Shown: piece by piece, positions 3,835-46,923 of the stretch | Layout of the letters: each line of letters begins with the position of its first letter | Position numbering within the stretch: the stretch's first letter is position 1 | Source: an uncultured Erysipelotrichaceae bacterium | GTDB lineage: Bacteria > Bacillota_I > Bacilli_A > Erysipelotrichales > Erysipelotrichaceae | NCBI GenBank assembly: GCA_902793635.1 | Contig: CADBEA010000005.1 | Location: forward strand, 1 to 64,000 | Direction: 5' to 3' | DNA length: 64,000 nt | Made by a program: the position numbers and the translations under genes | Notes under the pieces: generated by a model | The model's database searches: none | The model's input: only the letters and a program-made list of their open reading frames with translations | Told to the model about the DNA's origin: nothing

Positions 3835-4950
3835 TTATTCCATGCTGCGGCACTGTTCGAGCAGGGAAATGATCGGCAGGTGCTGCGGGCAGGCTGCTTC
3901 ACACTGGCCGCACTGGATGCAGTCAGACGCTTTGCCGCGGCCGACCGTCACAATGACATATTCTCTCTTGGTGCGGAATTCCGGACTGCCTTTCTTGCGG
4001 TTCTCGACGGCGAAGATTTCCGGAATCGGAATGTTCATCGGACATCCCTTGGTGCAGTAGTGGCAGGCGGTGCAGGCGATCGACTGATCTCTGTTCAGTG
4101 CTTCCTGCGCTTCTTTGATCACTTCTTCTTCATGGGCGTCAAGCGGTTTGAAGTCTTTCATGTAACTGAGGTTGTCCTGCATCTGTTCCAGGGAACTCAT
4201 GCCGCTCAGGACAGCCAGGAGGTTATCCTTGCTGGCGACAAAACGCAGCGCCCAGGAGGAGTAGGAGAGGCCGTTGTTCTCTCTGTCAAAAATGGCTTTG
4301 ACGGAATCGATCGGATTAGCCAGGATGCCACCTTTGATCGGTTCCATGACAACGACCGGCTTGCCGTACTGTTTGCAGATCTCATAGTTTCTGCGGGACT
4401 GCACGCCGGGATTCTCCCAGTCGGCATAGTTGATCTGCAGCTGGACGAATTCCGCGTCCGGATGCTTTTCGAGCAGTTCCACCAGCAGTTCGGGATCGGC
4501 ATGGAAGGAGAAGCCGTAATGCCTGATCAGACCTTCTTCCTTCAGCTTCTTTACATAATCCCAGATGCCGTATTCTTCATATTTCTGATAGTTTGTCCGC
4601 TGAATGGCATGGACCAGATAATAATCGAAATAACCAGCGCCGCTGCGTTCCAGACTGGTTCTGATTTCCTGCTTCGCTTCTTCTTCCGTGATATCACTGC
4701 CTGGTGAAATGATCAGTTTGGATGCCAGGGTGTAACGGTCACGCGGGTAACGCTCAACCAGTGCCTGGCGGATCGCTTCCTCACTTCCCGGATAGGCAAA
4801 GGCTGTGTCAAAATAGGTGCCGCCGGCCTCCAGAAAACTGTCGACCATCTGCGAAACCTGCGGGATGTCGATTGATCCGTCTTCGAGTTTGGGCAGGCGC
4901 ATCAGGCCAAAACCCATCTTCAGTTTCTCTTTTCCTGTAAACACACTCAT
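3835..4950 (-). CDS. Aldo/keto reductase with C-terminal 2x[4Fe-4S] ferredoxin domain
   Basis: 371 aa. An AKR TIM barrel covers roughly residues 1-280, with YFDTAFAYPGSEE (catalytic Asp/Tyr region), a Lys in LASKL and YYLVHAIQ. A bacterial ferredoxin-like tail follows, with CTACHYCTKGCP near residue 293 and CIQCGQCEAACP near 344, enough cysteines for two iron-sulfur clusters. This AKR-ferredoxin type is common in strict anaerobes; physiological substrates are mostly unknown, and electrons may come from the clusters rather than only NADPH. It is a single gene with a good ribosome site (GGAGAT) before the ATG at 4950. Confidence 0.88.
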   Translation of the reverse strand: MSVFTGKEKLKMGFGLMRLPKLEDGSIDIPQVSQMVDSFLEAGGTYFDTAFAYPGSEEAIRQALVERYPRDRYTLASKLIISPGSDITEEEAKQEIRTSLERSGAGYFDYYLVHAIQRTNYQKYEEYGIWDYVKKLKEEGLIRHYGFSFHADPELLVELLEKHPDAEFVQLQINYADWENPGVQSRRNYEICKQYGKPVVVMEPIKGGILANPIDSVKAIFDRENNGLSYSSWALRFVASKDNLLAVLSGMSSLEQMQDNLSYMKDFKPLDAHEEEVIKEAQEALNRDQSIACTACHYCTKGCPMNIPIPEIFAVENRKKGSPEFRTKREYVIVTVGRGKASDCIQCGQCEAACPQHLPIISLLEQCRSME

Positions 4951-5089
4951 GGTATTTCACATCTCCTTTACATTTAAATTATACAGGATTGAGCAGTCTG
5001 GTTTTTGTGATTTTGCACTGGAATTGTCGTTCTGAAACATATTCACGAAAATGAAAAATTATGAAAGAACTGTAAAATAATTGTAAAAA

Positions 5090-43912: not shown

Positions 43913-43950
43913 CGCACAGAACAGGACATACGTATCAGAAATACTGAAAG

Positions 43951-43990
43951 ACAGGAAAGGATGATTCACGTACTTTCCTGTTTTCTTTTT
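43951..43990 (+). terminator. Terminator after the Q-rich protein gene
   Basis: ACAGGAAAG/CTTTCCTGT with a 13-base loop and T-rich tail TTTTCTTTTT. Confidence 0.9.
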
Positions 43991-44039
43991 AGGTCAGATG
44001 ATCCGGAAGGGAATCCGTACAGAGAAGGAATGTTTTTTT

Positions 44040-44068
44040 TTGCCACGGATAAGGTAACATAATATTAT
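44040..44068 (+). promoter_or_regulatory. Promoter of the lanM gene
   Basis: TTGCCA (44040-44045) and TATTAT (44063-44068) with a 17-base spacer, 32 bases above the start codon. This indicates the synthetase is transcribed by itself. Confidence 0.65.
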
Positions 44069-44100: not shown

Positions 44101-46827
44101 ATGTCTGAAAGAGATGATCTGATAAAAAAAGAGATTGTTCAAAAAGTGCTTGCGGAGCTGAACTGCAAGCTGACGGAAATGCATGCGGAGCATTTTTCCA
44201 TCAGCCGGCAGGCAGAAGAGGACCTGCAGGCCGGACTGATCATCAGAGTTGCGAAAATCATGCATCCGACGCTGTTCCGCATGTTCCTGGAATACCTGAA
44301 CGAGCAGGACATGCTGGATCCATATATCAAAGACGACAATTCCGAAGAACTGGATCCCTGCCGGCAGAGTTTTGCAAAAACCGTGACTCTGTCCGTTCTG
44401 CAGCAGAAGGTGCCTTCTCTGATCGGACTGATCCACAGAACATTTGACACTTATCAGAACGTCATCCTGGAGATGGTACAGCGGATGGATCTTGCCTATG
44501 AAGACATCTGCAGAGATCTGCTGCAGAACGTGCATTTTCAGACTCTGACCGGTGCGAAAACGGACAGCGGTGACGTGCATAATTTTGGCCATACGACGAC
44601 GGTTCTGACGACCGATGCCGGAAAGTTCGTATACAAGCCGCATGATGTCAGAATCGACCTGAAATCAAAAGAACTGATCGACACCTTCTTCGCCGATGTC
44701 ATGCAGGCACCTGCCGTATGCTGCTATGATGGCTATGGTTTCGTGGAGTTTATCGACAGCGAACCGGCGGATACAGAAGAAAAGGCAAGACAGTACTGCT
44801 ATAACCTTGGCGGTCTGGCCACCATGGTACTGATGCTTGGCAGCAGTGACCTGCACCACAGCAACGTTCTCTCCCGGGGAATCTATCCGGTGATCATCGA
44901 TTATGAACTCATGATGACACCGGGCCGACCTGTCAAAGAGAACAGCCTGGGGCATGATCTGCGGTACTCGCTTCTTTACAGTTCTCTGATGCCGCAGAGA
45001 AGGGAAGAAATCGAAATGAGCATTCTTTTCGCCAAGGACGAGAAGAATCTCAGTTCACCGCTGGTCGACGGCGAAAGAAAATGCGTCACGGATTATCCGG
45101 ATGCATTCCTTGAAGGATTCCGAAATACCTACCGAAGATGCATGGAGCAGAAAGAAGAACTGAAGGAATTCGTCCGTTCCATGAAAGGCATCTTCGTCCG
45201 CCATATCTACCGCAATACCGGTGCCTACACGATCCTGAGGGATAAGACGCTGGAGCCCGCATGGATCGAAGATCCGTCCTTAAGAGACGAGGTGTTTCAG
45301 CAGATGTCGGTTGCCATGAAAAGAAGCGGCGCCGTGAATACTGACGAAATCGCGGCGGCTGAAACGGACGCGATCCTGCGCGGTGACATTCCCTATATGT
45401 ATATCCGAACCGACGCCGGTGATCTGTATATGGACGGCAGGATCGTACATCAGAACTTCTTTGCCCAGACCTGTATCGATCATGTCCTTTCCCGCATTGA
45501 CAATCTCAGTGACAAAGATCTTTCATTCGAGGAAGCACTGCTGAAGAAGGCGATGACCAGAATCATCCGGCGCAAGCGCCGGGGTTATGAGATCCGCGAG
45601 CGCATCATTGCCAGAAAGACGATCACGGATGAAGCTCTGCTTTCCCATGCGGAAACGATTTTCAGAGAAATCGCCGACGATGCCGTATATACACCGTCCG
45701 GTGATATCTGCTGGTTTGGTGTGAACTACTTCCTGGAAACCGGTATGGAACTTTACGGTCAGGGCCTGATCGGCGGTATCACAGGACTCGCGGTATTCTT
45801 CGCGGCACTGCACAGAATCACTTCTGATCAGGAGATTAAAAAGAAAACCGAAGAACTGGTCGAATATATCATGAAACGGATCGAGCATTCTGTGGACGGA
45901 CTCAGCGGTCTGGAAGTGATCTATCCCAATGTCGAAAGCATTGCCATGTCCGGCGGCCTCGGCGGCAAGCTGATTGCCTGCTATCTTATATCCGTGTATA
46001 TGAATAACAGTCAGTACCGCGAAATCTGCACAAAGATGATCCGGGTGCTGCCGAAGATGGATCTGCGGTTTGAAAAATCGGATGTCTATAACGGCACTGC
46101 CGGACTCCTGAAGATACTTTGCCGCTATGATGAATTCTTCAATGAACCGGGCGTAAAGGATTTCTGCAGCGCCCTGGCGGACAGGATCCTGGCTGATGCC
46201 AGCATTCCTTATAAAGACACAAAGATCTGGAGGACATTGTCCAATACCTGGGCGATCTCAGGCGCGGGACATGGCCAGTCCGGTGTCGCTTCTGCTCTGT
46301 ATCTGGCTGGGAAACGGCTGCAGAGAGAGGATCTGATCACGGCTGCCCAGGCTGGTTTTGACTTTGAAGCGGATACTTATTCCGTCCGGATCGGGGCCTG
46401 GCCGGACCGCAGAAGAAGTGAGAGAGCCGATGAATATCTGACCGGCTACTGCTCAGGTGCGCCGGGAATCGGCATGAACGCGCTGCTGCTGGATTATGAA
46501 GGTCATGAAGAGACTTTGAAGAGAGCCATCCGAAGCACCCTGAAAGAACCTCTGATGTTTAAGGATTTCCTTTGCTGCGGCAACAGCGCCATGGTGGAAT
46601 TCCTGCTGCTTGCCGGCACGAAACTGCAGCGGCCGGATCTTGTGGAAGAGGCAAGGACAAGAATGGCCATGATCATTGCCAGAGCGGAAAGAAACGGCTA
46701 TTATCAGTGCCTCAACAAGAGCATGAACAATGTGTTCAACTCGAGTCTTTTCTACGGTACAGCCGGCATCGGTTATGAAATGCTGCGGCTGATTTCACCG
46801 GATACGATCGAGTGCGTGTTCCTGTGA
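44101..46827 (+). CDS. lanM: Class II lanthipeptide synthetase (LanM), ProcM-like zinc site
   Basis: 908 aa, a little shorter than the usual 950-1100. The N-terminal dehydratase (DUF4135) shows GDVHNFGH (residues 157-164), VYKPHDVR and a kinase-like DLHHSNVL plus IIDYE (250-269) for Ser/Thr phosphorylation and elimination. The C-terminal LanC-type cyclase (about 560-908) has catalytic His in SGAGHGQSG (about 724) and zinc ligands in GYCSG (Cys784) and LCCGN (Cys825-Cys826). Three cysteines, CCG in place of the common CHG, is the ligand set of the promiscuous ProcM-type synthetases. No precursor peptide, LanT or protease is recognised within several kb, so substrates are probably encoded elsewhere. 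AGGTAGATGT precedes the start. Confidence 0.93.
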   Translation: MSERDDLIKKEIVQKVLAELNCKLTEMHAEHFSISRQAEEDLQAGLIIRVAKIMHPTLFRMFLEYLNEQDMLDPYIKDDNSEELDPCRQSFAKTVTLSVLQQKVPSLIGLIHRTFDTYQNVILEMVQRMDLAYEDICRDLLQNVHFQTLTGAKTDSGDVHNFGHTTTVLTTDAGKFVYKPHDVRIDLKSKELIDTFFADVMQAPAVCCYDGYGFVEFIDSEPADTEEKARQYCYNLGGLATMVLMLGSSDLHHSNVLSRGIYPVIIDYELMMTPGRPVKENSLGHDLRYSLLYSSLMPQRREEIEMSILFAKDEKNLSSPLVDGERKCVTDYPDAFLEGFRNTYRRCMEQKEELKEFVRSMKGIFVRHIYRNTGAYTILRDKTLEPAWIEDPSLRDEVFQQMSVAMKRSGAVNTDEIAAAETDAILRGDIPYMYIRTDAGDLYMDGRIVHQNFFAQTCIDHVLSRIDNLSDKDLSFEEALLKKAMTRIIRRKRRGYEIRERIIARKTITDEALLSHAETIFREIADDAVYTPSGDICWFGVNYFLETGMELYGQGLIGGITGLAVFFAALHRITSDQEIKKKTEELVEYIMKRIEHSVDGLSGLEVIYPNVESIAMSGGLGGKLIACYLISVYMNNSQYREICTKMIRVLPKMDLRFEKSDVYNGTAGLLKILCRYDEFFNEPGVKDFCSALADRILADASIPYKDTKIWRTLSNTWAISGAGHGQSGVASALYLAGKRLQREDLITAAQAGFDFEADTYSVRIGAWPDRRRSERADEYLTGYCSGAPGIGMNALLLDYEGHEETLKRAIRSTLKEPLMFKDFLCCGNSAMVEFLLLAGTKLQRPDLVEEARTRMAMIIARAERNGYYQCLNKSMNNVFNSSLFYGTAGIGYEMLRLISPDTIECVFL

Positions 46828-46880
46828 AAACGGCAGCTGTTCAAACCAGCTATCTTTGCGGCTAAGAAGAACAAGTTAAA

Positions 46881-46923
46881 AACTGCAGCAGTTTATCGCA
46901 AACCGCTGCAGTTTTCTGTTTTT
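46881..46923 (+). terminator. Terminator of lanM
   Basis: AACTGCAGC and GCTGCAGTT with a 15-base loop, followed by TTCTGTTTTT. Confidence 0.85.

Follow-up and report, generated by a model that had tools for sequence, protein, structure and literature searches.

We found that an uncultured, Solobacterium-like Erysipelotrichaceae of the ruminant gut very probably possesses a dispersed lanthipeptide system, in which a single CCG-type synthetase (LanM) would modify several precursor peptides encoded far from it and an NHLM-type ABC transporter pair on another contig (C30) would export them. This reading was built on sequence comparison. The synthetase gene lies in the window (the whole stretch of DNA analysed, 64 kb), which makes up the first part of the 83.6-kb contig C5 in a MAG of 79 contigs (2.43 Mb, 95% complete, 3.6% contamination); at this degree of fragmentation, parts of the system may be missing from the assembly. 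A first-pass annotation of the window had proposed a distributed system with precursors still to be found, and five candidates have now been located on four other contigs.

The gene, lanM, is an open reading frame on the (+) strand encoding 908 amino acids, with its ATG at 44101 and a stop codon ending at 46827. By its domains and its match to TIGR03897 (492 bits; cut-off 304), the product is classed as a class II lanthipeptide synthetase, with DUF4135 (residues 105-315) and LANC_like (residues 554-907) in a single chain and both Pfam domains scoring above cut-off. The nearest solved relatives found by phmmer were LicM2 and CylM. The following features were located in the window:

44101-46827, + strand: lanM, class II lanthipeptide synthetase (TIGR03897, DUF4135, LANC_like, phmmer, dN/dS)
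44413-45045, + strand: dehydratase part matched by DUF4135, residues 105-315 (motifs aligned with LicM2/CylM-type LanMs)
45760-46821, + strand: LanC-like cyclase domain, residues 554-907 (PF05147, 142.7 bits)
46450-46452, + strand: predicted zinc ligand Cys784 (GYCSG), invariant in orthologues and aligned with WCHG of CHG enzymes
46573-46578, + strand: predicted zinc ligands Cys825 and Cys826 (LCCGN, CCG motif), invariant in orthologues
44040-44068, + strand: possible promoter TTGCCA-N17-TATTAT, 10/12 consensus match, 33 bp 5' of the ATG
46878-46916, no strand: hairpin with T-runs, 18 base pairs, between convergent genes

It was noted that the dehydratase motifs GDVHN (157-161), VYKP (177-180), DLHHSN (250-255) and IIDYE (265-269) are intact in LanM and kept across orthologues, part of the DLHHSN stretch being absent from the orthologue in genome G075. 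VRHIYRNT (366-373), which orthologues likewise keep, comes after the part matched by DUF4135. The cyclase carries the CCG motif at residues 825-827, with Cys as the third zinc ligand, and its His724 (GHG) is also conserved. The three-Cys zinc site that the annotation had read at Cys784, Cys825 and Cys826 is found at exactly these positions. Zinc ligands were assigned by alignment; the AlphaFold model of LanM is poor (pLDDT 59). The CCG motif was found in all gut orthologues, G043c and Nostoc ATCC 53789, and CHG was found in Priestia, Streptomyces, NukM, G143 and G024.

Only one LanM is encoded in the host genome, and its neighbours are ordinary (a glyoxalase-like protein, a DUF3795 protein and a glutaredoxin-like protein). 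Inspection of this neighbourhood agreed with the annotation, which had reported no leader-like peptide, LanT or protease around lanM; all three were looked for near the gene and none was found. A precursor cluster directly beyond the window, named beforehand as an observation that would count against a distributed system, is absent, and a precursor profile search of the whole of contig C5 returned no precursor. One weak match on this contig at 48741-48833 (E 0.09) was rejected as a chance hit, being out of frame and containing an internal stop. Transcription of lanM from its own promoter to its own terminator, as had been proposed, is plausible but unevenly backed. The gene is set apart from the preceding gene by an upstream hairpin at about 43950-43995, and the hairpin downstream is probably a bidirectional terminator; the case for the promoter is weak, with promoter-like matches showing no excess over chance (5 observed, 4.2 expected in shuffles).

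Orthologues of LanM were found in nine genomes of the genus, the host genome included, and in one Saccharofermentans MAG. The relatives that bear names are Solobacterium sp. and Erysipelotrichaceae MAGs, for which the stated hosts include goat, roe deer, reindeer and cattle. Beside the orthologous LanMs, a small peptide recurs with a leader ending in VNGG or VSGG and a core containing NPN(S/T), W or Y, (S/T)S and two Cys. Nine aligned precursors adjoining the LanMs of relatives, with no sequence from the host genome among them, made up a profile (A1), and the host genome was searched with it; a search of this kind would miss any precursor whose leader and core are both quite unlike these. Five precursors were recovered at E values of 8e-35 to 3e-20, and the next match stood at E 0.09. 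Each of the candidate precursors below rests on the A1 profile:

C36:17646-17870, - strand: candidate precursor
C36:17389-17604, - strand: candidate precursor
C1:87875-88093, + strand: candidate precursor
C62:7552-7785, + strand: candidate precursor
C34:23629-23820, - strand: candidate precursor, start probably at an ATG four codons upstream

These five make up four loci, all on contigs other than C5, and a Shine-Dalgarno sequence precedes each of them. The genome-wide precursor search that the annotation had recommended, run here by profile, yielded five candidates whose conserved leaders end in Gly-Gly. A leader-only profile recovered these five again; applied to the Saccharofermentans genome, it added two more dispersed precursors to the LanM-adjacent one.

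The precursor leader spans about 39 residues (consensus MEKxLLESLKGKSREERxxYFxxHKSELLDxxLxxVNGG) and the core 33-40 residues of the form NPx[S/T]...[W/Y]x[S/T/A]S...C...C, in which N, P, S, C and C are invariant and which gives all cores one scaffold. Within the host genome, mean identity is 56% among leaders and 40% among cores; the cores are pairwise 27-66% identical, differ in length and contain 2-3 Cys. The dN/dS of LanM against its relatives is 0.09-0.18, and pooled values for the precursors are 0.20 in the leader and 0.13 in the core, so that orthologous cores are constrained at least as much as leaders. By these ratios, both LanM and the precursors are under purifying selection. The precursors matched no family among the Pfam and NCBIfam models, and a search of the host genome for the Nif11 leader (TIGR03798) gave no match at E<=0.01; they are an undescribed family of small genes. 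Their loci are syntenic between species, with conserved flanking genes. We also observed peptides with VSGG/VAGG-type leaders, long tails and Cys paired as in a zinc ribbon (L019 9210-9542(+) and G043:C151:4937-5095(+)), which by their sequence are not lanthipeptide-like.

The distribution of enzyme and precursors was assessed across a family sample of 273 genomes, of which nine carry a full-length or nearly full-length LanM orthologue. Precursors at E<1e-15 were found in eight of these nine genomes and in none of the 264 others, and in the ninth (G079) a precursor at the edge of a contig is truncated. The Fisher value for this co-occurrence (5e-17) ignores shared ancestry, and such values overstate the case because related genomes are not independent. 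The clostridial order of Saccharofermentans is a separate test of the association: of its 188 genomes, the two with LanM are also the two with precursors, and the other 186 have neither. Both of these genomes carry precursor(s), LanM, ABC1 and ABC2 in a row, an arrangement that links the parts to one another. Fragments of LanM of about 100-150 residues were noted in two genomes with no strong precursor match (G078:C54:14146-14421 and G135:C42:3792-4232) and are possibly remnants. A LanM family search of 392 genomes of the phylum gave matches only in the host genome and G024. A consensus-like precursor had no match in the phage and plasmid collections, a LanM scan of viral contigs gave none, and LanMs found on plasmids are only distantly related, the closest at about 24% identity.

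Dispersal was also encountered within a single contig of a relative. In genome G068, seven precursors are on the 99-kb contig that carries LanM, two of them at distances of 32 and 64 kb from the enzyme gene, and contig C15 holds one more. A 3.2-kb stretch with one precursor, 93% identical between species, was shared by L094 4904-8101 (G000:C1) and L104 (G068:C15). The precursor dS in this stretch is 0.02 against a LanM dS of 0.68, a contrast that points to a probable recent horizontal exchange of the precursor locus. A promoter-like block, TTGAAA-N-TA.R.GAT...RTGCT, is common to L093 7895-7931(-), L098 2207-2243(+) and L036 13624-13660(+). Blocks of this type stand 5' of the C36 precursor pair and of the array downstream of LanM in G068, which suggests that the precursor array may have moved away from LanM.

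The sole C39-peptidase transporter found in the host genome is on contig C30. Its two adjacent genes are classed by curated cut-offs as an NHLM-type ABC transporter pair, with ABC1 at 936 bits against 853 for TIGR03796 and ABC2 at 718 bits against 709 for TIGR03797. The Cys, His and Asp of the C39 peptidase are all intact, and the HlyD-like gene upstream encodes 168 aa and matches TIGR03794 weakly. This transporter adjoins neither LanM nor any precursor found in the host genome. Its type occurs in all nine genomes with LanM against 8 of 61 other genus members, and the pair is the only exporter candidate of the C39 kind in the host genome; its link to the peptides is a statistical one. A second transporter type, with a degenerate C39 site, occurs in seven of the nine genomes with LanM and is absent from the host genome. 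In the clostridial genomes, the LanM-adjacent transporter is likewise not of the C30 type: the Cys of its C39 domain is replaced, leaving this domain degenerate, and it has no counterpart in the host genome; the degenerate type of the genus is closer to the transporter beside the Saccharofermentans LanM (about 46% vs 34% identity). NHLM-like ABC1 genes with the catalytic C39 Cys replaced were observed at L102 4543-6723(-), L107 6464-8644(+) and L022 12730-14934(+), the first two adjoining a methyltransferase-like gene.

We then compared the synthetase with characterized systems, using a LanM tree that included the Nostoc CCG enzyme and left out the ProcM sequence. The gut CCG LanMs form one clade (support 100/99), and placement with ordinary CHG enzymes, which the annotation had said would contradict its reading, was not seen. 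The Nostoc enzyme stands apart in the full tree and groups with the gut clade (78/80) only when a single long branch has been taken out. The CHG synthetases LicM2, CylM, NukM and the Priestia mersacidin-type enzyme share the domain order, dehydratase motifs and cyclase family of the host LanM, but their third zinc ligand is His rather than Cys, they fall outside its clade, and the host LanM lacks an adjoining precursor or LanT. CCG LanMs have been associated with high natural promiscuity, and dispersed precursors number 29 for ProcM and 79 for SyncM (PMC10027976). The system appears to work like these two, to judge by the analogy: as with ProcM and the prochlorosins of Prochlorococcus MIT9313 and with SyncM, there is one CCG-type LanM and a set of peptides whose leaders are conserved, whose cores differ and whose genes are scattered across the genome. 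However, there are five precursors here rather than dozens, no NCBIfam/Pfam model, Nif11 (TIGR03798) included, matches their leaders, their cores keep a single residue scaffold where those of prochlorosins are hypervariable, and they belong to a gut Bacillota. Roseocin-type and cyanobacterial two-LanM clusters also have more than one precursor per synthetase, but theirs are clustered and have NHLP or N11P leaders (PMC10027976). Relative to the NHLM export system (TIGR03796/TIGR03797), the C30 pair passes both cut-offs with an intact triad but has a weak HlyD-like gene and stands apart from LanM and the precursors found. A third, distant CCG LanM was noted in G043 (L029 6659-9262(-), contig C184) near a Nif11-type precursor at 4806-5081(-) (TIGR03798, E 6e-4), and this genome seems to have two lanthipeptide systems.

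From the genes, loci, conserved motifs, co-occurrence and purifying selection observed, we infer the pairing of enzyme and substrates, ring formation, the exporter assignment and a role for the product. Small genes at four or more separate loci would each encode a leader and core, and LanM would recognise the leader that they have in common. It would dehydrate the conserved core Ser/Thr (NPx[S/T] and [S/T]S), and its three-Cys zinc site would close thioether rings on the two conserved C-terminal Cys. The C30 pair would then export the peptides, its C39 peptidase probably cutting the leader after Gly-Gly. Co-occurrence suggests that LanM modifies all five precursors, and the enzyme would in that case be promiscuous.

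Because the assembly is in 79 contigs and about 2.5 kb or less separates the C62 and C34 precursors from a contig end, the apparent dispersal could in principle reflect fragmentation of an ordinary compact cluster. We give this explanation hardly any weight: lanM is 44 kb from the start of its contig and the C1 precursor is 88 kb from the start of one of 167.5 kb, the precursor loci keep their flanking genes in other species, and the spread within a single contig in G068 shows that dispersal is no assembly artefact. It is also very unlikely that LanM is a dead-end remnant of a former compact cluster, the dispersed peptides being unrelated survivors or served by another enzyme. Precursors do lie directly 3' of LanM in G068, G075 and G079 and are gone from that position in the host genome and G025, and the promoter block common to the G068 array and the C36 locus indicates that genes have moved; but the dN/dS of LanM and of the precursors (0.13-0.20) indicates continuing selection, the dehydratase and cyclase motifs are intact, no second LanM exists in the host genome, and high-scoring precursors never occur without LanM.

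A closer contender, to which we assign somewhat under an even chance, is that the system is dispersed but its enzyme is not broadly promiscuous, tolerating changes within one scaffold, with CCG marking a lineage and saying nothing of substrate range. The fixed places of NPx[S/T], Ser and two Cys in all cores and the strong constraint on orthologous cores favour it, whereas the divergence of the host-genome cores in identity, length and Cys number means that the enzyme must have some tolerance under any ring pattern. This alternative overlaps with the preferred reading of one LanM serving several dispersed precursors, and the difference is one of degree.

To our knowledge, dispersed arrangements of LanM and precursors are otherwise known only from cyanobacteria, and none of the papers searched describes such a system in gut Firmicutes/Bacillota. 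We consider it an evenly balanced proposition that this is a dispersed system that originated independently in gut Bacillota and has a leader family of its own, variants on a single scaffold and loci that move between species independently of the synthetase. A genome-mining survey sought precursors within seven genes of the synthetase (PMC7268733), and a survey of rumen isolates required a core peptide near LanM (PMC13289728); limited to the synthetase neighbourhood, such surveys would therefore call the host LanM an orphan or drop it. The present analysis names likely substrates for this orphan-looking enzyme and provides a profile usable to find more. The system would offer a second setting, anaerobic and gut-dwelling, for asking why a single synthetase should act on precursors from scattered chromosomal loci, and its conserved scaffold with variable residues may be used as a natural library for testing the tolerance of CCG-type LanMs.
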